DNA from: Actinophytocola xanthii
GTDB taxonomy: Bacteria; Actinomycetota; Actinomycetes; Mycobacteriales; Pseudonocardiaceae
DNA: 57,322 nucleotides
Reading direction: 5' to 3'
NCBI RefSeq assembly: GCF_001921205.1
Contig: NZ_MSIE01000068.1
Location: forward strand, 1-57,322
Shown here in pieces: positions 40,998-52,992 of this stretch. The notes beneath the pieces were generated by a model. That model was not told the origin of the DNA. It made no database searches and saw only the letters and a program-made list of their open reading frames with translations. Numbering within the stretch: the stretch's first letter is position 1; each line of letters starts with the position of its first letter. The translations under genes were made by a program, and so were the position numbers.

Positions 40998-41741
40998 TCA
41001 ACTGGCGGAGCGGGCGTTCGGGAGGAGGCAGGCGTAGCTCACCGGGAGCAGCAGACTCACGAACGTTCCGCCGGACCCGGTGCAGATGCGGCGGGCTTCC
41101 GCGACGCGGCGGTCAGCGGGGCGGAGTGGGTTGAACACGCAGATGTATCCCACCGGGTTCACGGTCAGGGACAGCACACCGCCGGTCGCGGTGCACAGCG
41201 CGGTCGCGTTTCCCAGACCCGAGCCCGGACCCGTTCCCGGCGGGGTGCTCGTGTTCTCGCAGCTGGCGTGGATGTCGGGGTCCGGCGCCGGGCCCTGACA
41301 GGTGTCGATGCCGTCGCCACCGTCGAGGCTGTCCTGGGCGCCGTCGTTGGACGAGCCGATGAGGACGTCGTTACCGGCGCTGCCGGAGATCGTGTCGGCG
41401 CCCAGACCACCGGTCAGGGAGTCGGCGCCGGTGCCACCGGTGATCGTGTCGTTGCCGTCACCGCCGTCGATGGTGTCGTTGAAGGCCGAGCCGGTGATCG
41501 TGTCGTTTCCGCCGTTGCCGGTGATCGTCTTGCCGGGGTCCGTGCCGCCACAGTCGATCGTGTCGTTGCCGGGACTTCCGACTACGGTCGTACCGGTCTG
41601 GGTCACACCGGCGCTCACGACACAGAGGACCGCGGCGTGCGCGGTCAACGGGGCAACTGCCCATAAGACCGGGACCACGAGGACCGCTGCCAGCGTGCCG
41701 CTGATCCCCCGACGGAGGAGGTGGTTCTGTCGAATTCTCAT
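40998..41741 (-). CDS. Secreted RTX-repeat calcium-binding protein
   Basis: A 247-residue exported protein. A signal peptide (basic MRIRQNHLLRRG, hydrophobic core, cleavage near AHAAVL, about residue 37) precedes nonapeptide repeats of the form GGxGxDxxx: GSPGNDTID, GNGGNDTIT, GSAFNDTID, GGDGNDTIT, GGTGADSLT, GGLGADTIS, GSAGNDVLI. These build a calcium-filled parallel beta-roll. The C-terminal 90 residues contain several Cys (ICVFNPLRPADRRVAEARRICTG, SYACLLPN) and resemble no enzyme. It is small and lacks toxin or protease domains, so it may be a structural surface protein. Export would be by Sec rather than type I secretion, because a signal peptide is present. Confidence 0.85.
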   Translation of the reverse strand: MRIRQNHLLRRGISGTLAAVLVVPVLWAVAPLTAHAAVLCVVSAGVTQTGTTVVGSPGNDTIDCGGTDPGKTITGNGGNDTITGSAFNDTIDGGDGNDTITGGTGADSLTGGLGADTISGSAGNDVLIGSSNDGAQDSLDGGDGIDTCQGPAPDPDIHASCENTSTPPGTGPGSGLGNATALCTATGGVLSLTVNPVGYICVFNPLRPADRRVAEARRICTGSGGTFVSLLLPVSYACLLPNARSAS

Positions 41742-42229: not shown

Positions 42230-42378
42230 ATGCGACACAATCGCACAATTCTCACCCTTGCCGCGGGCACCGTTCTCGCCGCCGGTACCGCCCTACTACT
42301 GCCCCTGACCGCGCAGGCAGCGGTCGCCTGCAACGAGTCGGCACTGGTCACCGCGGCCAACGCGGCCGGTGGCGGGAC
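42230..42378 (+). pseudogene. 5' stub of a secreted protein gene
   Basis: ATG 42230 begins a normal signal peptide (MRHNRTILTLAAGTVLAAGT, hydrophobic core, cleavage near AQAAVA) followed by CNESALVTAANAAGGGTV, the usual start of actinobacterial right-handed beta-helix secreted proteins. The homology stops at about 42378, where transposase-derived sequence begins. The gene is therefore truncated after about 50 codons; the remainder is not elsewhere in the window. Confidence 0.7.
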
Positions 42379-42380
42379 AG

Positions 42381-42640
42381 TACCCCCACATCACCCTCGC
42401 GATGCTCGGCCACGCCTGGCTGGCCGTGTCCCGCTCCCTTGCCACAAAAGGGGAACCAGCGCGAGCAAGCCAGACATGATCGCTTTCACGCTACCGGAGA
42501 TCCGCCGCCTGTTGACCAAGCTCGTCCTACGGATCGCCGACACCGCCGAACACGTCTGGGCCTGGTCGACCTGGCGACGCCGCCGACAACACCAAGCCCG
42601 ACTCAGCCACTACAAAGGACGCGGCTACCCACTCACCTGA
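42381..42640 (+). mobile_element. IS701-type transposase C-terminal remnant
   Basis: The frame YPHITLAMLGHAWLAVSRSL through ATKGEPARAS, continued after a one-base loss at about 42473 by DMIAFTLPEIRRLLTKLVL and AEHVWAWSTWRRRRQHQARL, matches the C-terminus of IS701-family transposases as I know them. It ends in a stop at 42640. Only about 85 codons remain, so the element cannot move itself. It replaced the 3' part of the secreted-protein gene. No intact terminal repeat is visible. Confidence 0.7.
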
Positions 42641-42724: not shown

Positions 42725-42890
42725 TAGGGCACGTCTGGTGGATCTCCGGCCGCGCGGTCCGCGCCCGGATGGCCCCTGGCGGCGTTGTCGCATCGCCCGA
42801 GTACAACCCTGTACGAGGCCGACGCTCCGCCTTGCCAGGAACCATCCGGATCACGAACCGCATCGACCAAGATCCACCAAACGCGCCCTA
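42725..42890 (-). repeat. 166-bp MITE-like element, copy 1
   Basis: It begins TAGGGCACGTCTGGTGGATC and ends with the near-exact inverse, TAGGGCGCGTTTGGTGGATC on the minus strand, with TA at both ends as expected for TA-target duplication. The second copy at 52097 has exactly the same length and shares internal blocks (GAGTACAACC, GTACGAGGCC, CTCCGCCTTGCCAG). The two arm mismatches become G-U pairs in a minus-strand RNA. The TAG stop of the LuxR gene coincides with its end. It encodes no protein. Confidence 0.75.
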
Positions 42891-43535
42891 GCCCACCAGG
42901 CCTGCCTCGTGGGCGAGCAGGCCCGCCTGGGTCCTGTTGCGACAGCCCACCTTGACCAGCATCCGCGAGACATAACTCTTCACCGTCGCCTCGGAGAGGC
43001 ACAGCTCGGTGGCTATCTCCGCATTGGACAGGCCGCGGCCGAGGCAGGACATCACCTCCAGCTCGCGGTCGGTCAGCTCGCGCAGCCGGGCCCGAGCGTC
43101 CTCGCCGCGTCGCCGGCCGTCGGTCGAGGCGGTGACCAGTCGGGCGGTCGCGGCGGGGGACAGCACGGTGTGTCCGGCCGCGGCGACCCGCACCAGCTCG
43201 GCCAGGTCCTCCGGAGGTGTCGTCTTCAGCAGGAAGCCGGCGGCGCCGGAGCGCAGTGCGCGCAGCACGTAGCTGTCGGCGTCGAAGGTGGTGAGCGCGA
43301 CGACCGGCGGCGGCGCGGGCAGCGTCGCGATGCGTTCGATCGCGGTCAGGCCGTCGACGCCGGGCATCCGCAGGTCCATCAGCACCAGGTCGGGACGGTG
43401 CCGGACGACCGCCTCCACCCCCTCGGCGCCGTCGTGAGCGGCGGCGACCACCGCGATGTCGCCGGCGGCGTCGAGGATCACCCGCAGGTGGGCGCACACC
43501 ATCGGCTCGTCGTCGACCACGACGACCCGGATCAT
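42888..43535 (-). CDS. NarL/LuxR-family response regulator
   Basis: A 215-residue regulator. The REC domain has VVVVDDEPMVCAHL, phosphoacceptor in DLVLMDLRMPGVDGL, VVALTTFDAD and Lys in AGFLLKTTPPEDL. The LuxR HTH covers residues about 150-210 (LTDRELEVMSCLGRGLSNAEIA, LSEATVKSYVSRML). It overlaps the kinase gene by ATGA, a canonical two-component pair. Its stop codon is provided by the end of the 166-bp repeat, so the native C-terminus may have been altered slightly by insertion. Target genes are unknown. Confidence 0.93.
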   Translation of the reverse strand: MIRVVVVDDEPMVCAHLRVILDAAGDIAVVAAAHDGAEGVEAVVRHRPDLVLMDLRMPGVDGLTAIERIATLPAPPPVVALTTFDADSYVLRALRSGAAGFLLKTTPPEDLAELVRVAAAGHTVLSPAATARLVTASTDGRRRGEDARARLRELTDRELEVMSCLGRGLSNAEIATELCLSEATVKSYVSRMLVKVGCRNRTQAGLLAHEAGLVG

Positions 43536-44755
43536 CTCGGCTCTCCCCGCGTCGGCACGTAGGCCGGCAGTATCGCAGCGACCCGGTAGCCGCCCTCGGG
43601 CAGCGGACCGGCCCTCAGCGTGCCGCCGACCAGCTCGACCCGCTGCCCGAGTCCGAGCAGGCCGACCCCCGACCCGCTGCCGGCCAGGGCGCCGTCGGCC
43701 CGGCGACGGCCCGCCCCGTTGGTCACGTCCACGTGGACGCCGTCAGTGCGGTAGGTCAGCTCGACGGTCACCGGGGCGCCGGGGGCGTGCTTGCGCGCGT
43801 TCGTGAGCGACTCCTGCACGATCCGGTACACGGTCCTGCGGACGGTCGGCGTGGCCCGTTCCGGCTCACCGTCCACTTCGTACTCGACGTCCTCGCCGAC
43901 GGCGCGGGCCTCGTGGACCAGCGCCCGCGGGTCCGGGACGGTCGGCTCGGCCGGCCGCGCCGCGGTGGCCTCCCCGGCGTCCCTGAGCACCCCGACCAGG
44001 TCCCGGAGCTCGTCCAGTGCCTGCGTACCGGCCTGCCGGATCTCCTCGGCGGCCGACCGCACCGCCGGGTCACCCGAGCTCGTGCGCAGCGCCCCGGCGT
44101 GCAGCACCATCAGGCTCAGGCGGTGGGTCACCACGTCGTGCATCTCCTCGGCGAGCCGGCGCCGCTCCTGCGCCCTGGCCTGCTCGGCGAGCAGCAGCTG
44201 CTCGCGCTCGGCCCGCTCGGCGCGCTCGCGCAGGGAGTCCACCAGCTCCTTCCTGGCCCGCAGGTACAGCACGGCGAGCGCCGGGAGCACCGTGTTGACC
44301 ACCCCCAGCGGCGTGATCTCCCAGCTGGGGTCCCAGAACCGGGTGCCCAGCACGGCGAGCAGACCGACGAGGGTGAACACCACCCGCCGGCGCCGCAGCG
44401 GGACCAGGTTGGTGACGATCGCCGGCGTGGCGAACGGCAACGCGACGTGCGCCGCGGGCGCCACGGGGGTGAGCAGGCCGGGCGCGAGCTGCTCGGAGAG
44501 GAGCATGAGCACCGCGACGGTGACCGCCCACGAGGCGACCCGCAGCGGGAAGCGGGTGAGCAGCAGCAGCGAGAGGTCCACCGACAGCTGGAGCAGCAGC
44601 GCCGCGTGCGGGCCGGCCCAGCCGGTCGTGGGCGGGCCCAGCCCGTAGACGAGCAGGTCGATCGCGCCGAAGAGCACGACCGCGAGGACGAGCCAGCGCG
44701 CGTCCCGCCACGGCGGCCAGCGGGCGGCCCGGTCGGAGGTCTGCCGGCTGCTCAC
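43532..44755 (-). CDS. Sensor histidine kinase (HisKA_3 type)
   Basis: A 407-residue membrane kinase. About four to six transmembrane helices fill residues 20-165, followed by a coiled coil (ERAERAEREQLLLAEQARAQ) and the H-box RRLAEEMHDVVTHRLSLMVLHAGAL. The HATPase has IVQESLTNARKHAPGA, and the ATP lid GSGVGLLGLGQRVELVGG. It lacks an extracellular sensor domain and so belongs to the intramembrane-sensing group common in actinobacteria. GTG 44755 begins SSRQTSDRAARWPP; the frame is open to 44887 but without conservation. It is cotranscribed with the LuxR-type regulator. Confidence 0.92.
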   Translation of the reverse strand: MSSRQTSDRAARWPPWRDARWLVLAVVLFGAIDLLVYGLGPPTTGWAGPHAALLLQLSVDLSLLLLTRFPLRVASWAVTVAVLMLLSEQLAPGLLTPVAPAAHVALPFATPAIVTNLVPLRRRRVVFTLVGLLAVLGTRFWDPSWEITPLGVVNTVLPALAVLYLRARKELVDSLRERAERAEREQLLLAEQARAQERRRLAEEMHDVVTHRLSLMVLHAGALRTSSGDPAVRSAAEEIRQAGTQALDELRDLVGVLRDAGEATAARPAEPTVPDPRALVHEARAVGEDVEYEVDGEPERATPTVRRTVYRIVQESLTNARKHAPGAPVTVELTYRTDGVHVDVTNGAGRRRADGALAGSGSGVGLLGLGQRVELVGGTLRAGPLPEGGYRVAAILPAYVPTRGEPR

Positions 44756-44869
44756 CCCGACACCGTATTGCCGCCGGCCTCCGCCACCGCGCGGTCGGCA
44801 ACTTTCGTGGGTCCAGGTGTCCACGTTCGCCGCTCCCGCCGGGGCACGGCGGCGCGGTCCACTGGGGAC

Positions 44870-45834
44870 ATGGGAGACACGAGGCATTCCAGGCGAACGC
44901 CCTGCACGCCGCCGCCGTCGGGATCGCGGCCGCCGGGTTCACCACCACCGCGGGCGGCCCGGCCGCGGCGCAGCGGCATCCCCGGCGCGGCACGACGACG
45001 TTCGTCGTCGTCACCGGCGCGAGCGGCACCCCCGGCGGCATCGACGCGCTGTCCCTGCGCGGGCACCGCACGGTGGGGGTGAACCTGCCCGGGCACGGCG
45101 TCGCCGACGCGCAGTTCGCCCACGACTACCAGTGCCCGCAGGACCCGACCTCGCTGGCGACCCGCCCCTCGCCGATGGCGGGCGTGGGGCTGGACGCCTA
45201 CGAGGCGGCGGCCGTCGAGGTGGTCCGCGCGGTGGCCCCGTTCGGCCCGGTCGTCCTCTACGGCGGCAGCATGGGCGGCGCCACGCTCAACCGGGTCGGC
45301 AACGCGGTGCCGCACCTGGTCGACCGCGTCGTCTACGACACCGCGTTCTGCTGCGTCGACCTGCCCTGCCCGGAGGACTACCTGTCCACGCCGGAGGGGT
45401 CCTCGACGCTGGCCGGCAGCCTCGCCTCGCTGGTGGTCGCCGACCCGGCGGTCGTCGGCGCGGTGCGGGCCAACTACCGCACCGGCGACCAGGACGCGCT
45501 CGCCCGACTGAAGGAGGCGCTGATGGCCGGCGCCCCGGACAGCGAGTTCTACGCGCTGCTCGCCCACCTCCAGCCCGACGAGTCGCTCACCGTCGGCCGG
45601 GAGGACTCGCGGGTGCGGGCGGACACCTGGGGACGCATCCCGCGGACCTTCATCCGGCACACCGCCGACCGCATGATCCCACTCGCCCTGCAGGACAGGA
45701 TGATCGCCGAGGCCGACCGGCTGACCCCGCGCAACCGCTTCGACGTGCACACGGTGGCCGCGCCGCACGCCGCGACCAGCGAGCAGTTCCGGGAGATCGT
45801 GGACATCCTGGACCGGTTGCCCGAGTGCCGGTGA
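44870..45834 (+). pseudogene. Tat-exported alpha/beta hydrolase with one frameshift
   Basis: ATG 44870 starts MGDTRHSRRT. After a one-base loss at about 44899 the protein continues in the next frame as ALHAAAVGIAAAGFTTTAGG, so together they form a twin-arginine signal peptide (SRRTALH). The mature enzyme has FVVVTGASGTPGG, the VGVNLPGHG strand-loop, nucleophile elbow VLYGGSMGGATL, and catalytic His in TVAAPHAATSEQF; IRHTADRMIPL carries the acid. One added G restores the whole 321-residue protein. If the loss is real, translation could begin at GTG 45073 but would lack the export signal. Substrate is unknown. Confidence 0.75.
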
Positions 45835-45847
45835 GGCCGGCGGTAGC

Positions 45848-47170
45848 GTGGGCGCGGTGGCGCCACCCAGCTTCGACTCCGGTCACCCCGCCCACGACGC
45901 GGCCTACGCGAAGGCCGTGCGGGACGTGGCGGACAGCGTCTCCGGCGGCGTGTTCGTCGCCGGGGAGTCCTGGCCGACGGTCTGGGTCCGGGACGCCTCG
46001 TTCGCCATCGACCTGGCCACCGCGCTGACCCATCCGACGGTCTCCACCGCCACCCTGCGCGGCGTGGCCGGCTCGGGCGCGGCGTGGCCGCAGGACCGGG
46101 CCGCGCACTTCGGCGGCTGGCCCCGCCTCACCGACTCCGTCGTCGGTGCCGTGGGCGCCTGGGCCTGCTACCAGGCCACCGGCGACCTGGACTTCCTGCG
46201 CTGGAGCCACGGGGTGACCAGGGCGAGCCTGGCCCGGGCCGAGCGGGAGGTCACCGACGGCGGGTTGTTCCGCGGCTGCGCGAGCTTCATGGAGTCCAAC
46301 AGCGGCTACCCGCCGCGCTTCGCCTTCCGCGGCCGGGCCGTCGGCGCCACGAAAGCGTTGAGCACCAACGTTCTCCACCACCGCGGCTACGTCCTGGCCG
46401 CGCGAGCGGCCGCGTTGCTCGGGGAGGACCCGGAGCCGTTCGAGGCGGCGGCCGCGAGGCTCCGGCAGGCGATCAACGAGCGGCTGTGGCAGCCGGACCG
46501 GGGCCACTACGCGTACTACGAGGACGCCGACGGCCGGACGAGCGACCGCTGGGAGGGCCTGGGCAACGCGCTGGCCGTGCTGTGGGGCGTGGCCGACGAC
46601 GACCAGGCGGCCGCGATCCTCCGGACCGTGGTCCCGACCCGGCACGGCCTGCCCTGCCTCTGGCCGCCGTACCCGCTGTGGAAGCCGTGGCTGGTCCGGG
46701 ACGAGTACTACTACCACAACGCGACCGTGTGGCCGTTCGTCCAGGGGTATTGGGGCTGGGCGGCCGCGACCCGCGGCGCGGTCGAGGTGTTCGCCGCGGA
46801 GCTGGCCGCCCTCGCCGCTCTCGCCGGCCGCGCCCCGACCTACCACGAGTTCTACCGCCCGGACAGCGGAGCGCCGGACGGCTCGGCCCGTCAGCTGTGG
46901 AGTGCCGCGGGATATCTCGCGATGGTCCACTACGGACTCCTCGGCCTGGCACCCGACGGCGACGAGCTCCGCTTCCGGCCCGTGGTGCCGGCCGGCTTCT
47001 CCCGGCTGCGGCTGTCCGGTCTCGCCTACCGGAACCTCACCCTGGAGGTCACGGTCACCGGCTCCGGCACCCGCGTCCGGTCCTTCGCACTCGACGACGT
47101 GGCGCGCCCCGACCACGCCGTGCCCGCCGCGCTGAGCGGCGTGCACCGGGTGGACATCGCCATGCACTGA
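45848..47170 (+). CDS. Six-hairpin glycosidase-like protein
   Basis: A 440-residue soluble protein with the alpha/alpha six-barrel pattern of glycogen-debranching and related glycoside hydrolases. WPTVWVRDASFAIDLATALTHP, with the conserved Trp-x-Arg-Asp, and ALAVLWGVADDDQAAAIL, PPYPLWKPWLVRDEYYYHNATVWPF are characteristic; acidic residues in the RD and DEYYYHN motifs are candidates for catalysis. There is no signal peptide, so it should act in the cytoplasm on oligosaccharides. No CAZy family is assigned with confidence. GTG 45848 lies 13 bases after the hydrolase stop, so it may be in an operon. Confidence 0.75.
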   Translation: MGAVAPPSFDSGHPAHDAAYAKAVRDVADSVSGGVFVAGESWPTVWVRDASFAIDLATALTHPTVSTATLRGVAGSGAAWPQDRAAHFGGWPRLTDSVVGAVGAWACYQATGDLDFLRWSHGVTRASLARAEREVTDGGLFRGCASFMESNSGYPPRFAFRGRAVGATKALSTNVLHHRGYVLAARAAALLGEDPEPFEAAAARLRQAINERLWQPDRGHYAYYEDADGRTSDRWEGLGNALAVLWGVADDDQAAAILRTVVPTRHGLPCLWPPYPLWKPWLVRDEYYYHNATVWPFVQGYWGWAAATRGAVEVFAAELAALAALAGRAPTYHEFYRPDSGAPDGSARQLWSAAGYLAMVHYGLLGLAPDGDELRFRPVVPAGFSRLRLSGLAYRNLTLEVTVTGSGTRVRSFALDDVARPDHAVPAALSGVHRVDIAMH

Positions 47171-47195
47171 CGCCGCCGGCGGCGCACCAGGTGGT

Positions 47196-48455
47196 CTAGC
47201 GGTCCAGGTCGGCGAGCTTGCCTTCCAGGACGGACCGCTCCCTGGCGTTGGCGCACAGCCGCACCGCGCGCTCCAGCTCGGTCCGCGCCTCCTCGCCCCG
47301 TCCCAGCCGGACGAGCAGCTCGCCGCGCACAGTCGGCAGCAGGTGCGAGGCCGACAGCGTTCCGGCGGCGACCAGGTCGTCCACGATCGGCAGGGCCGCG
47401 GCCGGGCCCTGGGCCATCGACACCGCCACCGCCCGGTTCAGGTCCACGACCGGTGAGGGCGCGAGCCGGCCCAGCGCCTCGTAGAGGAGCACGATGCGAT
47501 CCCAGTTGGTCGTCTCGACCGAGTCGGCGGTCGCGTGGCACTCCGCGATCGCCGCCTGCAGGCCGTAGGCCCCGAGGCCCCGGCCGGCCTGTTCGACCCG
47601 GGCCAGCGCGGCTCGTCCCCGCCGGATCGCCGACCGGTCCCAGCGGCGGCGGTCCTGCTGTTCGAGCAGCACCGGCTCCCCGCCGGGCCCGGTCCGGGCG
47701 GGGAAACGCGCGGCGGTCAGCTCGAGCAGCGCCAGCAGGCCGTGCACCTCGGGCTCCTGGGGCACCAGCCGGGCCAGCACCCGGGCGAGGCGCCGTGCCT
47801 CGCCGGCGAGGTCGAACCGGATCAGGTCCTCGCCGCTGCTCGCCGAGGCACCCGCGGTGAAGATCAGGTAGAGCACGCTGAGCACCGTGCCCAGGCGCTC
47901 GGTCCGCTCCCGCGCCGAGGGCACCACGAACGGCACCCGGGCCGCGGCCAGGGTCTTCTTGGCCCGGGTGATCCTGGCCTGCACGGTGGCCGTCGGGACC
48001 AGGAACGCCCTGGCGATCTCGTCGCTGGTCAGACCGCCGACGACGCGCAGGGTGAGCGCGACCCCCGCCTCCCGCGAGAGCACCGGGTGGCAGGAGATGA
48101 ACATCAGCGCCAGGACGTCGTCGTCGAGCTGGTCGGGGTCCCACAACACCTCCCCGCCGTCGGACGCTCCGCCCTCGCCCAGGTCACGGGCGAGGGCGGC
48201 GTACCGCTCGTCCAGCGCGGAACGCCGGCGGAAGGCGTCGACGGCCCGCCGCCGGCCGACGGTGAGCAGCCACCCCGCGGGGTTGCGGGGCGCGCCGTCC
48301 CGGGGCCAGCTCACCAGCGCCTCGGCCAGTGCCTCCTGGGCGAGGTCCTCGGCCAGGGCGAAGTCGCCGGTGTACCGGGCCAGCGCGCCGACGATGCGCG
48401 CCGACTCGATCCGCCAGACCGCGGCGACGGCCTCACGGCCGGTCGGGTCGCTCAT
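47196..48455 (-). CDS. ECF42-type RNA polymerase sigma factor
   Basis: A 419-residue sigma factor. Sigma-2 (ARYTGDFALAEDLAQEALAEALVSWP, NPAGWLLTVGRRRAVDAFRR) and sigma-4 (LRVVGGLTSDEIARAFLVPTATVQARITRAKK) occupy the first 180 residues. A C-terminal extension of about 230 residues, starting VPSARERTERLGTVLSVLYLIFTAGASAS and containing ETTNWDRIVLLYEALGRLAPSPVVDLNRAVAV, is the helical TPR-like domain that defines ECF42. There is no anti-sigma gene; control is thought to run through the extension and the DGPF protein encoded 15 bp upstream. It probably transcribes its own operon. Confidence 0.93.
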   Translation of the reverse strand: MSDPTGREAVAAVWRIESARIVGALARYTGDFALAEDLAQEALAEALVSWPRDGAPRNPAGWLLTVGRRRAVDAFRRRSALDERYAALARDLGEGGASDGGEVLWDPDQLDDDVLALMFISCHPVLSREAGVALTLRVVGGLTSDEIARAFLVPTATVQARITRAKKTLAAARVPFVVPSARERTERLGTVLSVLYLIFTAGASASSGEDLIRFDLAGEARRLARVLARLVPQEPEVHGLLALLELTAARFPARTGPGGEPVLLEQQDRRRWDRSAIRRGRAALARVEQAGRGLGAYGLQAAIAECHATADSVETTNWDRIVLLYEALGRLAPSPVVDLNRAVAVSMAQGPAAALPIVDDLVAAGTLSASHLLPTVRGELLVRLGRGEEARTELERAVRLCANARERSVLEGKLADLDR

Positions 48456-48470
48456 CTCCGCCCACCCCGC

Positions 48471-48890
48471 TCAGAGCTGGCCGGTGGCCTCGCGCCAGGC
48501 GCGCTCCCGGCGGATCCACTCGTTGTCCTGCGGGAACTCGTCGATGGTGGTGACCCGGCGGATCTCGGTCTTGAAGCCGCGACCGGTCATCGGCGACCGC
48601 TTGGCCCACTCCACGGCCTCCTCCTTCGAGCTCACGTTGAGGATGTAGAAGCCGCCGAACAGCTCCTTGGTCTCCCCGTAGGGGCCGTCGGTCACCACCG
48701 GCGGGTCGGAGGAGTAGTCCACGACCACGCTCTCGGCGGGGTCCTCGAGGCCCTCCGCGGCCAGCAGCACGCCGGCCCGGATCATCTGATCGTTGAACCT
48801 GCCCATGGTCTCGAGCATCTCGGTGAAGTCGGCATCTCCCATCGACGCGTAGGCCTCGTCGTCGGCGCGCATGATCAGCATGTACTTCAT
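48471..48890 (-). CDS. DGPF (YCII-related) protein
   Basis: A 139-residue ferredoxin-like-fold protein. The signature VTDGPYGETKELFGGFYIL is the DGPF motif for which the family is named. MKYMLIMRADDEAYA opens the first strand. DGPF genes are the hallmark neighbours and targets of ECF42 sigma factors; the biochemical function is unknown, with dehydration or lyase activity sometimes proposed for YCII proteins. ATG 48890 follows GGGAGACACC; the longer frame to 49118 is non-conserved. It is the first gene of the DGPF/ECF42 operon. Confidence 0.93.
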   Translation of the reverse strand: MKYMLIMRADDEAYASMGDADFTEMLETMGRFNDQMIRAGVLLAAEGLEDPAESVVVDYSSDPPVVTDGPYGETKELFGGFYILNVSSKEEAVEWAKRSPMTGRGFKTEIRRVTTIDEFPQDNEWIRRERAWREATGQL

Positions 48891-48945
48891 CGTCGGTGTC
48901 TCCCTGTCCGCCCGGGTCCCTCTTCCGGACCCTCTCACCCCCTGG

Positions 48946-48972
48946 TCGAACGAGGAACGCCGGGGATCGACA
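48946..48972 (-). promoter_or_regulatory. Candidate ECF42-dependent promoter
   Basis: On the minus strand, TGTCGA (48972-48967) is followed after 18 bases by CGA (48948-48946), 55 bp before the DGPF start. As I recall, ECF42 promoters have TGTCGA at -35 and a short CGA-type -10, so this fits autoregulation of the DGPF/ECF42 operon. The boxes lie between the MFS stop and the DGPF start. Confidence 0.55.
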
Positions 48973-48975
48973 CGT

Positions 48976-50205
48976 TCAGGACGTTTTTTCCGCGGGGGAA
49001 CCCGCGGCGCCGGCCACCTCGCGCATCCCGCGCAGCGGCGAGACCAGCAGCCATCCCCCGGCGAGGCAGGCCAGCGCCCCGCTGACCAGTAGGGCCTCCC
49101 GGGTACCGGCCCAGGCACCGAACGCGCCGCCGAGCAGGCTGCCCACCGGCATCACGCCCCACGCCATCAGCTCCATGGTCGCGCTGACCCGGCCGAGCAG
49201 CTCCGGCGGGCAGACCGTCTGCCGGATGGTCGCCTGCACCACGGCGGTGAGGATGATGCAGAAGCTCGCCGCGAGCGCGCTCGCGCTCCACCAGACGAGC
49301 CCCCAGCCGGGCGTGGTGAACGCCTGCGCCAGCAGTGCCGGACCGAGCAGCAGCGTGCCGCCCACCAACGCCCTGGCCTGCCCCAGCCGCGCCACCAGCC
49401 GGCCGGCCACCGCGGAGGCGGCCAGGGCGCCCAGCAGGCCGACGGTGCCCAGCAGGCCGATCACGCCGGCGGTGAGCCCGATGTCCCGGACCAGGAACAC
49501 CGCGCTCACCGCCATCCCCGCGGACTGGCCGAGGACGGTCGTCGCCGTGCTCAACGCGATCGGGCGGAGCAGCGGGTGGCCGAACACGAACCGCAGGCCG
49601 GCGACGATCTCGCGCCCGAGGTGGCGGTCGGGCGAGCGGGGCACGCGCCGCTCTCGGTGCCGGATGGCGCGGATCCACAGCGCCGACCACACCATCGACA
49701 CCGCGTCGACCACGAACACGAACGGCGCGGTCAGCAGCTGGACCAGGTACCCGCCGCCGGCGGCTCCCGCCAGCGCGGCGACCGAGGCGTTGGCCGAGAG
49801 CCTGGCATTGGCCGACACCAGCTCCTCGGGCGGCAACAGGCGCGGCAGGTACGTCTGGTGCGCGACGTCGAAGAACACGGTCAGCACCCCGACGAGGAAC
49901 AGAACCAGGTACAGTTGCCAGAGCGCGAGCACCCCGAGCAGCGCGGCCGCCGGCACCCACAGCATCAGCGCCGCGCGCCCGAGGCTGGTGCCCAGCAGCA
50001 CCGGCCGGCACCGCACCCGGTCCACCCACGCCCCGGCGAACAGGCCGAACAGCAGCATGCCGAGCGTCTCGCAGGTGCGCACCAGCGCCACCTCGAACGT
50101 GGACGCCTCCAGGTACAGCACCGCGAGCAGCGGCGCGGCGAGGAAGGTCATCCGCATGCCGAGCTGGGCGGCCGCGTCCGCTAACCAGAGCCGACGGAAG
50201 TCCAC
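48976..50205 (-). CDS. MFS exporter
   Basis: A 409-residue protein with 12 predicted transmembrane helices. FRRLWLADAAAQLGMRMTFLAAPLLAVLYL is the usual first-helix region, and GLFAGAWVDRVRCRPVLLGTSLGRAA carries the inter-helix G-x-x-x-D-R motif of the family. The EntS/MefA-like subgroup exports siderophores or macrolides. It is divergent from an ArsR-type regulator gene with a perfect inverted repeat between, a classical repressor-exporter pair. Substrate is unknown. Confidence 0.9.
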   Translation of the reverse strand: MDFRRLWLADAAAQLGMRMTFLAAPLLAVLYLEASTFEVALVRTCETLGMLLFGLFAGAWVDRVRCRPVLLGTSLGRAALMLWVPAAALLGVLALWQLYLVLFLVGVLTVFFDVAHQTYLPRLLPPEELVSANARLSANASVAALAGAAGGGYLVQLLTAPFVFVVDAVSMVWSALWIRAIRHRERRVPRSPDRHLGREIVAGLRFVFGHPLLRPIALSTATTVLGQSAGMAVSAVFLVRDIGLTAGVIGLLGTVGLLGALAASAVAGRLVARLGQARALVGGTLLLGPALLAQAFTTPGWGLVWWSASALAASFCIILTAVVQATIRQTVCPPELLGRVSATMELMAWGVMPVGSLLGGAFGAWAGTREALLVSGALACLAGGWLLVSPLRGMREVAGAAGSPAEKTS

Positions 50206-50212
50206 AGCGACA

Positions 50213-50230
50213 CCCTAGCGATTGCTAGGG
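50213..50230. promoter_or_regulatory. Operator between MFS exporter and ArsR regulator
   Basis: CCCTAGC-GATT-GCTAGGG is a seven-base perfect inverted repeat in the 43-bp divergent gap, eight bases before the MFS start codon and 18 before the regulator start. A regulator bound here would block both genes. Confidence 0.65.
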
Positions 50231-50248
50231 GGTAGGCATACTGAGGTC

Positions 50249-50785
50249 GTGGTCGACCCCGTCCTGCGTGCCCTCGGGCACCCCACGCGCCTGCGCATGC
50301 TCTCGCTCATGTGGAGCGGGCCGCTGAGCGCCGCAGCGCTCGCCACCGAGCTGGGGATCTCCCACGGCCTGGCCAGCCAGCACCTGCGTACGCTCGAGCG
50401 GGCGGGCCTCGCGGAGCTCGCCGAGGTGCGCCCCAAGCGCGGCGGCCGCGAGCGCCTGTACCGGACGGTCAAGGGCAGCCCGCTGTCCGACCGCCGTGAC
50501 GCCTCCCCGCTGCTCACCGAGGCGATCGTGAGCAACCTCCGCCAGCGGCTCACCGAGCGGGCGCCCGACTCGGCCTCGGTCGTCACCGACGCCGAGCTGT
50601 GGGTCTCCCCCGAGGCGTGGGCCGAGTACCGGGCCCGGCTGCGCGTCCTCATGGCCGAGCTGCACGAGCTCGCCCACCCGCCGCGCACCCCGGGCACCAC
50701 GCGGATCGCCGCCACCCTGATGGCCTTCGAGATGACCGGCGTCGACAGCCCCGGAGCGGCCGGTCAGCCCGGGTCGACCCGGTAG
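50249..50785 (+). CDS. ArsR-family regulator of the MFS exporter
   Basis: A 178-residue winged-helix regulator. VDPVLRALGHPTRLRMLSLMW is the ArsR opening, LATELGISHGLASQHLRTLERAGLAEL the recognition helix, GGRERLYRTV the wing. A C-terminal extension of about 80 residues (LTEAIVSNLRQRLTER, SPEAWAEYRARLRVLMAELHELA) is helical and probably dimerises or binds an effector. GTG 50249 is preferred over TTG 50222, because the latter lies inside the operator. It probably represses the divergent exporter and itself. Confidence 0.88.
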   Translation: MVDPVLRALGHPTRLRMLSLMWSGPLSAAALATELGISHGLASQHLRTLERAGLAELAEVRPKRGGRERLYRTVKGSPLSDRRDASPLLTEAIVSNLRQRLTERAPDSASVVTDAELWVSPEAWAEYRARLRVLMAELHELAHPPRTPGTTRIAATLMAFEMTGVDSPGAAGQPGSTR

Positions 50786-50808
50786 CGGCGCTTCCCACGC
50801 CGCGGCGG

Positions 50809-51540
50809 TCAACCGGTCACGGTCGCGAGGACGTCGCCCCGCGCGTCGTGGGCGGTGAAGACGGCCCCGTCGACCGGCCCGTCCAGGTCGAACAGGAAGT
50901 GCTTGCCGGAAAGGCCGTCGAGCATGCTCGGGATTCTGGCCGGGGTGCCGGCGCCCCGCCGGGCGGTCATCGAGGCGACGTCGTCGCGGGCGAAGACGAC
51001 GACCAGGCCCTCGAGCTCGGCCAGCAGGTCGGGTGGTGCCTCCAGTTGCGTGGCCATCTCCAGGGGCGAGCGGGGGGCGAGGACCGCCCGCTCCAGGTCG
51101 AGGCCGGCCATCGGCTCCCGCCACTGCGGCGGGTGCGGCCCCGGCTCGCCGAGCTCGTACAGCAGCCAGCCGACCTCGGCGTTCTCCAGGTACGCCAGGC
51201 CCAGCCGCAGCCCGGACTCGGGCTCCCGGCCCAGCGGAAGGGGCAGCGGGGGGGTGGCGAAGCCCGGCCACTCCGCGCGCCAGTCTTCGCGGGACTCGGT
51301 CGAGGTCGACGGCGCCTGGCCGGCGCGGACCGGGTCACCGCGGTCGAGGGCGACCGGCGCGACGACGCCGGCGAGGGCGACGGTCGCCGCCGCGGCGGCG
51401 GCCAGGGTGGGCAGCCGGTGACGTGACCGGCGGCTCGCCGCGAGCCGCCGGTCCAGGTCGCCCCGCGGGTCACGGCTCTCCGGCACGTCCTCGGCCATCG
51501 TGGTCAGCGCGGCACGCAGCCGGTCCTCGAGCTCGGGCAT
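50809..51540 (-). CDS. Membrane protein paired with a SigE-type sigma factor (probable anti-sigma)
   Basis: A 243-residue protein. Residues 1-45 are cytoplasmic (LEDRLRAALTTMAEDVPESRD, then RLAASRRSRHR), one helix at about 46-66 (LPTLAAAAAATVALAGVVAP) crosses the membrane, and the rest is extracytoplasmic. The start overlaps the sigma stop as ATGA, the usual arrangement for a sigma/anti-sigma pair. There is no zinc-binding HxxxCxxC motif in the short cytoplasmic part, so it is not a ZAS-type anti-sigma; a direct inhibitory role is inferred from context only. Confidence 0.65.
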   Translation of the reverse strand: MPELEDRLRAALTTMAEDVPESRDPRGDLDRRLAASRRSRHRLPTLAAAAAATVALAGVVAPVALDRGDPVRAGQAPSTSTESREDWRAEWPGFATPPLPLPLGREPESGLRLGLAYLENAEVGWLLYELGEPGPHPPQWREPMAGLDLERAVLAPRSPLEMATQLEAPPDLLAELEGLVVVFARDDVASMTARRGAGTPARIPSMLDGLSGKHFLFDLDGPVDGAVFTAHDARGDVLATVTG

Positions 51541-52064
51541 CAGCGTTCTCCCCGTTCGGGCCACGCGCGGCGCAGGTTGGCCAGGGCGTGGCTGGTGGTG
51601 GCCTTGACGGTGCCGACCGCGATGCCGAGGGTCTCGGCGATGGCGTTCTGGTCGAGGTCGAGCCAGTAGCGCAGGACGATCACCTGCCGCTGCCGCCTGG
51701 GCAGCGCGGCCAGGACCGCGCGCAGGCGCGGGTGGTCGTCGCCGGCCAGCACCGCCTCCTCGGCCGACACCTCGTGGATCGGGCGCGCCTCGGGCACCCG
51801 CCGGACCACCCGCAGGTGACGCAACCGGGTCCGGGACAGGTTGACCACGGTGCGGCGCAGGTAGCCCGCCGCCCGGTCGGGCGCCGCCAGGGTGTCCCAG
51901 CGTTCGTGCAGCCGCACGAACGACTCCTGCGCGATGTTCTCCGGATCGTCCGCGCCGAGCAGGTACGCCAGGCGCTTCATCGTCTCGAAGCTCGAGTCGA
52001 ACAACGCGTCGAACTCAGCACCGGGCTCGATGCGGGCTGGTGTGTCCTCGGTCGCCGTGTCCAC
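51540..52064 (-). CDS. SigE-family ECF sigma factor
   Basis: A 174-residue sigma factor with region 2 (FDALFDSSFETMKRLAYLLG, DDPENIAQESFVRLHERWDTL, YLRRTVVNLSRTRLRHLR) and region 4 (LAALPRRQRQVIVLRYWLDLDQNAIAETLGIAVGTVKATTSHALANLRR). This is the SigE-type ECF group common in actinobacteria. GTG 52064 follows GGAGG with one base between, a tight spacing, but homology starts directly after; upstream frame to 52235 runs into the 166-bp repeat and is not coding. It is cotranslated with the membrane protein. Confidence 0.92.
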   Translation of the reverse strand: MDTATEDTPARIEPGAEFDALFDSSFETMKRLAYLLGADDPENIAQESFVRLHERWDTLAAPDRAAGYLRRTVVNLSRTRLRHLRVVRRVPEARPIHEVSAEEAVLAGDDHPRLRAVLAALPRRQRQVIVLRYWLDLDQNAIAETLGIAVGTVKATTSHALANLRRAWPERGER

Positions 52065-52096
52065 GCCTCCTACATGCCCGACCCGGCCGTGGGGAT

Positions 52097-52262
52097 TAGG
52101 GCACGTCCGCACAGCCCTCGATCGCGGTCTTCGCGCCCAGCTCGCCGCTGGCCGCGTTGTCGGACAGACCGAGTACAACCCGGTACGAGGCCCGCCCTCC
52201 GCCTTGCCAGCGACGACCTGGATCACGAAGCCCATCGACCGGGACTGCGCGGACGCGCCCTA
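52097..52262 (-). repeat. 166-bp MITE-like element, copy 2
   Basis: It begins TAGGGCACGTCCGCACAG and ends with the near-inverse TAGGGCGCGTCCGCGCAG on the minus strand. Length and internal blocks equal copy 1 at 42725, but the inner arm sequence differs (CCGCACAG against CTGGTGGATC) while still pairing with its own other arm. The two mismatches become G-U on the minus strand. It fills most of the 310-bp gap between the divergent sigE-type gene and the wrbA gene; the right remainder holds the wrbA promoter. Confidence 0.75.
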
Positions 52263-52374: not shown

Positions 52375-52992
52375 GTGTCGGACCTGAAGACCTCGATCAT
52401 CTACTACTCGGCGACCGGGAGCGTGTACGCGATGGCCCAGGCCGCGGAGAAGGCGGCCGAGCACGCCGGATCGGAGGTCCGCCTGCGCAAGGTGCGGGAG
52501 CTGGCCCCCGAGGAGGCGATCGCCAGCAACGAGGGGTGGGCCACCCACGCCCGGCAGACCCAGGACGTCCCCGAGGCCACGCTGGACGACCTCGACTGGG
52601 CCGACCTGCTGATCCTGGGCGCGCCGACCCGCTACGGCATGCCGGCCGCCCAGCTCAAGCAGTTCGTCGACACCACCGGACCGCTCTGGGGCGCCGGCAA
52701 GCTGGTGAACAAGGCCGCCACCGCGTTCACCTCCGCCGCCACCGCGCACGGGGGGCAGGAGACCACGATCACCGCCCTGAACAACACCTTCTACCACTGG
52801 GGCTGCGTCATCGTCCCGCCCGGCTACGCCGACCCCATCCAGTTCCAGGCCGGCAACCCCTACGGCGCCAGCCACACCTCCAACAACGGCCAGGTCCCGC
52901 CGGGCCAGCTCGAGCTGGACGCGGTCTCCTTCCAGACCCGACGTGCGGTCGAGATCGCCCGGGCGCTGAAGGTGGGGCTCGCCAGCTCCTGA
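52375..52992 (+). CDS. wrbA: NAD(P)H:quinone oxidoreductase, WrbA type
   Basis: A 205-residue flavodoxin-like protein that reduces quinones by two electrons with FMN. SIIYYSATGSVYAMAQAAE is the FMN phosphate loop, LLILGAPTRYGMPAAQLKQFVDTTGPLWGAGKL the flavin-binding core and TITALNNTFYHWGCVIVPPGY the family's C-terminal loop. AAGGAGGAGGGG precedes GTG 52375, one of the best ribosome sites in the window. It stands alone with a 24-base gap to the potassium-channel gene and may be cotranscribed with it. Confidence 0.92.
   Translation: MSDLKTSIIYYSATGSVYAMAQAAEKAAEHAGSEVRLRKVRELAPEEAIASNEGWATHARQTQDVPEATLDDLDWADLLILGAPTRYGMPAAQLKQFVDTTGPLWGAGKLVNKAATAFTSAATAHGGQETTITALNNTFYHWGCVIVPPGYADPIQFQAGNPYGASHTSNNGQVPPGQLELDAVSFQTRRAVEIARALKVGLASS

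Follow-up and report, generated by a model that had tools for sequence, protein, structure and literature searches.

Hairpin MITEs with IS5-type ends and a strand-specific fold in Actinophytocola xanthii and other actinobacteria

Two 166-bp hairpin elements

The window considered here, i.e., the whole stretch of DNA that was analysed (57,322 nucleotides of contig NZ_MSIE01000068.1 of Actinophytocola xanthii, family Pseudonocardiaceae), contains two gene-less palindromic elements, A and B, which recur in the same genome and in many related actinobacteria and whose most conserved property is a hairpin predicted for their minus strand. They are treated here as miniature inverted-repeat transposable elements (MITEs). 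Two covariance models served to find and delimit them: R1, built from 45 copies of the own genome, and R2, a core model built from 40 divergent copies. The parts of the two elements are:

42725–42890, minus strand (strand of the conserved fold): element A, a complete hairpin MITE of 166 bp; R1 match of 165.8 bits on the minus strand
42757–42859, minus strand: conserved core of element A, the apical part of the hairpin; R2 match, E 2.5e-21
42725–42746, plus strand: left terminal inverted repeat of element A, TAGGGCACGTCTGGTGGATCTC
42869–42890, minus strand: right terminal inverted repeat of element A
52097–52262, minus strand: element B, a complete hairpin MITE of 166 bp from the larger subfamily; R1 match of 176.6 bits on the minus strand
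52129–52231, minus strand: conserved core of element B; R2 match, E 2.2e-21
52097–52116, plus strand: left terminal inverted repeat of element B (TAGGGCACGTCCGCACAGCC)
52243–52262, minus strand: right terminal inverted repeat of element B

Both elements are palindromic from end to end, carry TA at each end, start with TAGGGCACGT and finish with ACGCGCCCTA, and without gaps they are identical at 122 of 166 positions. The minus strand of each folds into one hairpin, at -132.5 kcal/mol for element A (z -14.3) and -126.5 kcal/mol for element B (z -11.0), with none of 200 shuffled sequences equally stable in either case, whereas the plus-strand folds are much weaker (-94.7 and -88.8 kcal/mol, respectively). 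The two minus-strand folds have 67 pairs in common, 15 of which are changed on both sides and still paired, while six more are changed on one side only with pairing retained; each hairpin contains 11 G-U pairs. An earlier note on this DNA, made from the letters alone, had located both palindromes with the correct lengths and TA ends, and its observation that the inner stems differ while each arm pairs with its own partner is borne out by these 15 pairs. It had also counted four arm mismatches in the first 20 bp, all turning into G-U wobbles on the minus strand; the wobbles are there, but they number two in element A and three in element B. Taken alone, the 10-bp end motif shows weak enrichment in the window (six matches with at most one mismatch against 2.4 expected; 5 of 100 shuffles reach six), and the significance of the two elements derives from their length, their fold and the copies elsewhere rather than from this motif alone.

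Copies, target site and terminal repeats

The own genome holds at least 45 full-length copies, which fall into two subfamilies (38 B-like and 7 A-like copies aligned). Element B led to about 40 places, with identities to the window copy of up to 98% (40 scored out of 248 candidates), and element A to seven full-length copies (40 scored out of 140); since only part of the first-look candidates was scored, these lists may be incomplete. Four of 48 copies, being partial, were left out of the alignment, and L037, which had been filtered because its element is identical to that of L036, was added back. Outside this genome the further copies that the earlier note had proposed to seek with a covariance model are plentiful: with the own genome counted, R1 detects matches in 5 of the 6 genomes that represent the genus and in 23 of 60 from the family, and R2 does so in 22 of 81 from the order, representing 9 of the 16 families sampled. 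The searches of relatives list best matches only, and the match numbers 86, 149 and 75 may count one place on both strands and are not copy counts. The last of these belongs to G018, a genome of the same family (4.8 Mb, single contig) with 75 R2 matches, possibly including both strands of one place; this density is high for a small genome and makes it suited to a population study. All three Streptomyces plasmid loci tested match R2 (E 1.4e-15 to 1.9e-8); they were chosen from 12 records with a DNA match, 11 of them from Streptomyces, and two of the three carry gene annotation. A core-pattern search of a genome collection returned five named matches, all of them contigs of the metagenome-assembled genome Actinophytocola sp. 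Dino_bin25. No phage match was obtained for one order-level element and no plasmid match for a different one.

The outer arms can differ entirely within the genus (e.g., TAGTGTCCCGCGCC or AGTGCCGCGTCC instead of TAGGGCGCGTCC), with the apical core and the length unchanged. The element occurs in two structural classes, with and without an AA / ACAA internal loop, the latter having a fully paired stem in its place (subfamilies of L153–L157, L306 and L308). Solo CTAGGGCRCGTC ends gave 98 exact matches compared to 24 for a reversed-pattern control, many of them being the ends of known copies. Two others belong to mini-hairpins of 50–52 bp (L081:1001–1052 and L088:2961–3012), which retain the ends and part of the outer stem and look like deletion derivatives of subfamily B.

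A typical copy sits in the context C|TA...TA|G, i.e., in a CTAG site with TA at both ends. In element B the flanking bases are T before and G after, giving TTAG at the left end and CTAG at the right end. Copies with the same fold were also recovered from other families of the order, and 6 of these 11 have CTAG at both ends, the rest showing a near form at one or both. Empty sites were sought by joining the flanks of seven own-genome sites and comparing them with five congeners, and 17 matches at five loci were inspected. The clearest case is the L002 locus in G005 (L357), in which both flanking genes align with a single CTAG between them. The L004 locus has five congener matches: in L332, L335 and L337 a single CTAG lies at the stop codon of a gene for an M23 peptidase, L342 has TTAG and L334 neither. 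At the L037 site GATCTAG lies at the gene's stop in two matches with a discontinuous right flank (L339, L360), and TGA is found in L333, L348 and L354; the matches of the L066 and L008 loci, as well as L350, are ambiguous or lack CTAG. From these comparisons we conclude that the target is CTAG and that TA is duplicated upon insertion, in agreement with the TA-targeting MITE and the TA duplications envisaged earlier. Each element end recreates CTAG and can therefore receive a further insertion, as in the tandem copies of G004 (L261, L264, L211), which have the same orientation and overlap by 2–3 bases. The CTAG between the orthologous genes flanking L002 (G000) and L341 (G004) carries copies of different subfamilies and, by the identity of the site, seems to have been hit twice by independent insertions.

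The neighbours of the copies were taken from a codon-usage gene caller. Among 150 classified copies (one place, L109 = L029, is counted twice), 88 have the stop codon of an adjacent gene on the element's end (55 on the sense side, 52 on the antisense side, 19 on both), and 66 lie between convergent genes; a gene 3' end is located within 10 bp of the element in 66 sense and 65 antisense cases. In the window, the terminal CTA of the right repeat of element A provides the TAG stop of a response-regulator gene. The neighbouring genes are:

42888–43535, minus strand: response regulator gene (Response_reg and GerE), ending in the terminal TAG of element A
51540–52064, minus strand: sigma factor gene (Sigma70_r4), adjoining element B
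52375–52992, plus strand: flavodoxin/FMN reductase-like gene, to the right of element B

A longer open reading frame of the sigma factor gene starts within element B, while codon usage calls a different start. To the left of element A, the frame 42230–42640 starts like a secreted protein with a signal peptide and ends in a stretch which we take to resemble a transposase C-terminus; it may be a gene that an old insertion has disrupted, immediately to the left of element A. Further to the left, the minus-strand gene 40998–41648 encodes RTX calcium-binding repeats (HemolysinCabind, E 2.9e-16).

The terminal repeats lead to the IS5 family. An insertion sequence (IS) of about 980 bp in the own genome (L095:3009–3987) has ends matching the subfamily A MITE, with two differences between its left end and that of element A in the first 20 positions, and encodes DUF4096 (PF13340, E 2.5e-26) and DDE_Tnp_1 (PF01609, E 1e-21) in two overlapping frames. 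IS and MITE are alike only for about 22 bp per end, and the MITE is therefore not a shortened IS. In a sample of 30 DUF4096 loci from 12 relatives (out of 63 matches in 14 genomes searched), nine have both ends within 6 mismatches in 40 of a known MITE end (2, 2, 4, 5, 5, 5, 6, 6, 6, the three at 6 being copies of one IS) and the remaining 21 have 7–12, compared to 8–12 and never fewer than 8 when the ends were read backwards as a control. None of the nine lies in the same genome as its matching MITE, and a partner IS for subfamily B was not found in the own genome. The IS630-like origin put forward in the earlier note, and with it a Tc1-mariner relationship, was rejected: a search for DDE_3 (PF13358), confined to the own genome, gave no match (a control search matched in 3 of 14 genomes), and the terminal repeats match IS5-family elements with DUF4096 and DDE_Tnp_1. 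By their ends, the elements are probably non-autonomous IS5-family MITEs. The suggestion of domestication likewise lacks support in view of copies up to 98% identical, six identical copies among those fetched from G003, empty orthologous sites and the lack of an orientation bias.

At L095:2999–4150 the IS5-family IS abuts a subfamily A MITE with one CTAG common to both, and a 14-bp end resembling subfamily B lies on the other side of the IS. A larger composite element between inward-facing ends (L072:1010–2959) was considered and rejected, as the interval is filled by long ordinary-looking gene frames.

Covariation and strand polarity

The own-genome alignment already pairs in 97.9% of its cells, with double changes at 20 of 70 pairs, a value reached by none of 500 shuffles. 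For a wider sample, 40 cluster representatives were aligned without reference to structure, and RNAalifold was run on each strand, giving -74.6 for the minus strand and -35.6 for the other. The consensus-pair cells comprise 1485 Watson-Crick, 255 G-U, 25 A-C and 160 other combinations, a count favouring G-U because the structure was predicted on the minus strand. An independent check is provided by 14 elements from outside the models' family, several of them loosely trimmed with some flank included: folded strand by strand, they contain 116 G-U pairs on the model strand against 33 on the other, the model strand is more stable in all 14, and only one has equal G-U on both strands.

In the core alignment, also built from the sequences alone (40 of them, with L160, L186 and L208 and then L292 of 44 representatives left out), 29 of 34 pairs show double changes and 93.4% of cells are paired, compared to 72.0% after shuffling, and tree parsimony on the 40 sequences gives 123 pair-keeping double changes against 5–27 when partners are slid by 1–3 columns. 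The wobbles there are 197 G-U to 10 A-C and are concentrated on particular pairs, being present in 36 of the 40 sequences at one pair and in 23, 21, 21 and 20 at others. Such pairs would be lost if one arm served as template for the other; their retention indicates that the arms are not copied from each other, and we read the covariation as a sign that the folded strand is selected. It goes beyond relatedness and is one-stranded, as expected of a structured RNA. Judged by these patterns, the hairpin fold of one particular strand is under strong selection; the covariation from which the earlier note had argued for selection on structure is very strong, reaches from the ends through the core, and shows the strand polarity which that note had surmised. 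A small peptide encoded on the minus strand, suggested by a 46-codon frame open through both window copies, was rejected, since 10 of 38 subfamily B copies carry a one-base insertion.

Variation among close copies was examined in 11 clusters of at least four copies (129 copies), with five columns per end omitted and the re-fetched own loci L109, L114, L118, L125, L129 and L136 dropped. With the partner unchanged, transition variants in Watson-Crick pairs that are common to several copies produce 18 G-U and 2 A-C (p=0.0004), whereas private ones produce 30 G-U and 19 A-C (p=0.15) besides 29 private pair-breaking transversions; variants whose partner had also changed were tallied apart (shared, 6 G-U and 3 A-C; private, 4 and 5). 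Part of the shared G-U may be ancestral and inflate the shared class. On this distribution the fold seems to matter to the spreading lineage and little to the resident copy. Shared variants that keep the fold and private ones that hardly do, together with an even orientation to genes, speak against a function in cis for the host and in favour of one in propagation or in trans.

The selected molecule and comparison with known systems

With moderate confidence we favour the reading that these MITEs, about 166 bp in length, are mobilised by transposases of the IS5 family (DUF4096/DDE_Tnp_1) and that the selected molecule would be one strand, as an RNA hairpin needed for propagation. Insertion is into CTAG with duplication of TA, such sites often being stop codons in these GC-rich genomes; read-through from adjacent genes would then produce the minus-strand RNA hairpin, which the active lineage might need in order to propagate, e.g., for tolerance, stabilisation or mobilisation, and resident copies would afterwards decay almost neutrally. 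That the folded strand is RNA is plausible, and we prefer it to DNA since both the ends and the TA duplication are what one would expect of a DDE transposase that works on double strands. Several observations weigh against this reading. G-T is also a tolerated mismatch in DNA, so that the polarity alone cannot separate RNA from single-stranded DNA. The internal loop is absent from several subfamilies, which counts against one fixed protein-binding motif, and 12 shared transversions break a consensus pair with the partner unchanged. Rfam has no match at the gathering score in the window, and eight loci at E<=1 gave only three sub-threshold matches to microRNA precursors. The own genome is the sole case in which an IS with matching ends shares a genome with its MITE, and it fits subfamily A alone; 30 of the 63 DUF4096 matches of relatives were examined. 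Finally, the copies are oriented evenly with respect to neighbouring genes (94 sense against 102 antisense), and the frequency of private changes that break the structure does not clearly depend on this orientation (0.32 per copy for sense-only, 0.41 for antisense-only, 0.52 with genes ending on both sides and 0.30 for the rest, all small numbers).

The main rival, in our view possible but rather improbable, holds that the selected form is a single DNA strand folded into a hairpin, either at the replication fork or within an intermediate of transposition, and that this hairpin would itself be the substrate moved, as has been proposed for repetitive extragenic palindromic doublets (REPINs) and is known from integron attC sites. 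Elements moving as single-stranded DNA are expected to show a replication-orientation bias. In five genomes starting at dnaA, with the terminus assumed at the midpoint, 36 copies are leading and 52 lagging (p=0.11; one genome 2:10, p=0.04) among 88 listed places (30 of the 75 matches for G018), from which opposite-strand duplicates had been removed by hand; this is no strong bias and leaves single-stranded DNA neither supported nor excluded. Selection that acts when the element propagates and not on copies already in place, without orientation bias in cis, would suit this rival well, as would single unpaired bases that recur at similar places of the 5' arm, and passages of the REPIN literature report compensatory changes in the hairpin and discuss a possible single-stranded DNA intermediate (PMC3116915). 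The ends and the TA duplication, on the other hand, indicate a DDE transposase working on double-stranded DNA. An ordinary hairpin MITE without any selection on the fold, its outer arms covarying to match a changing transposase and its inner arms kept alike by gene conversion or template switching, is unlikely and already disfavoured: the outer 20 bp do track the IS terminal repeats, and template switching can correct palindromes, but the covariation runs through the core far inside the ends, conversion would erase specific G-U pairs held in up to 36 of 40 divergent sequences, and it cannot explain a one-strand polarity.

Least probable of all, we think, is a cis element beneficial to the host, i.e., a bidirectional terminator or a stabiliser of mRNA 3' ends at stop codons. 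The many copies between convergent genes and close to gene 3' ends would agree with it, and the related ERIC and NEMIS/CREE repeats are described as acting on mRNAs. This location is, however, explicable by the choice of CTAG as target alone, and neither window copy has a U-tract after the stem. The lack of an orientation preference despite the one-stranded fold, and of a clear dependence of private breaks on orientation, does not support a cis-acting mRNA role. Returning to the favoured RNA hairpin of an IS5-moved MITE, one might tentatively go further and regard the family as a fold-dependent mobile element, although we consider this wider proposal doubtful: a structured non-coding RNA which can be recognised in nine or more families of actinobacteria, travels as a MITE, joins successive IS5-family transposases by re-evolving its terminal repeats and propagates via a folded single strand.

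We regard the element as a variant within the known kind of hairpin MITE, one whose conserved unit is a strand-specific fold, and not its sequence or its ends. Evolution appears to keep this one-strand fold through many changes of the ends across many actinobacterial genera, including Streptomyces, which makes it testable whether the propagation of a MITE needs folded RNA (or single-stranded DNA). R1 and R2 find the family, and its members may account for part of the long hairpins seen at stop codons of actinobacteria. A full-text literature search of openly licensed papers found no description of it. A term search of the main text of a 2024 review of prokaryotic MITEs (PMC10969869) gave no Streptomyces, Frankia, mycobacteri- or actinobacteria, and a survey of Streptomyces non-coding RNAs (PMC3765725), searched likewise, contained none of the terms "repeat," "transpos," "inverted" and "mobile."

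Like IS5-family MITEs, the elements are short and gene-less, with ends matching IS5-family elements (DUF4096 and DDE) and a short target duplication; unlike them, their interior is not a shortened IS but a full-length hairpin, conserved and covarying, which reappears with many different ends. Integron attC sites are also imperfect palindromes with extrahelical bases in which structure is kept more than sequence, but they differ from the DDE-type ends and TA duplication seen here. REPINs are tied to RAYT transposases. They are doublets of REP sequences, whereas the Actinophytocola element has IS5-type ends, and instead of a REPIN-type insertion without target duplication we find TA at both ends and one CTAG at empty sites. 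For compensatory change in a small mobile hairpin of bacteria, REPINs offer the closest precedent: in them length and hairpin-forming ability are reported to outweigh the spacer sequence, and the hairpins to show compensatory changes (PMC3116915). The nearest kind of element is the stem-loop MITE families ERIC, YPAL, NEMIS/Correia and RUP, repeats of about 106–169 bp of which many form one long stem-loop and some have TA targets and act as RNA within mRNAs, as described in the corresponding papers (PMC2267715, PMC2229807, PMC2649163). Those families belong to other bacteria and have other sequences. Compared with ERIC, NEMIS and YPAL by description only, the Actinophytocola element stands out by a fold that is kept across genera and families with repeated compensatory change and wobbles almost confined to one strand, and by ends that turn over.

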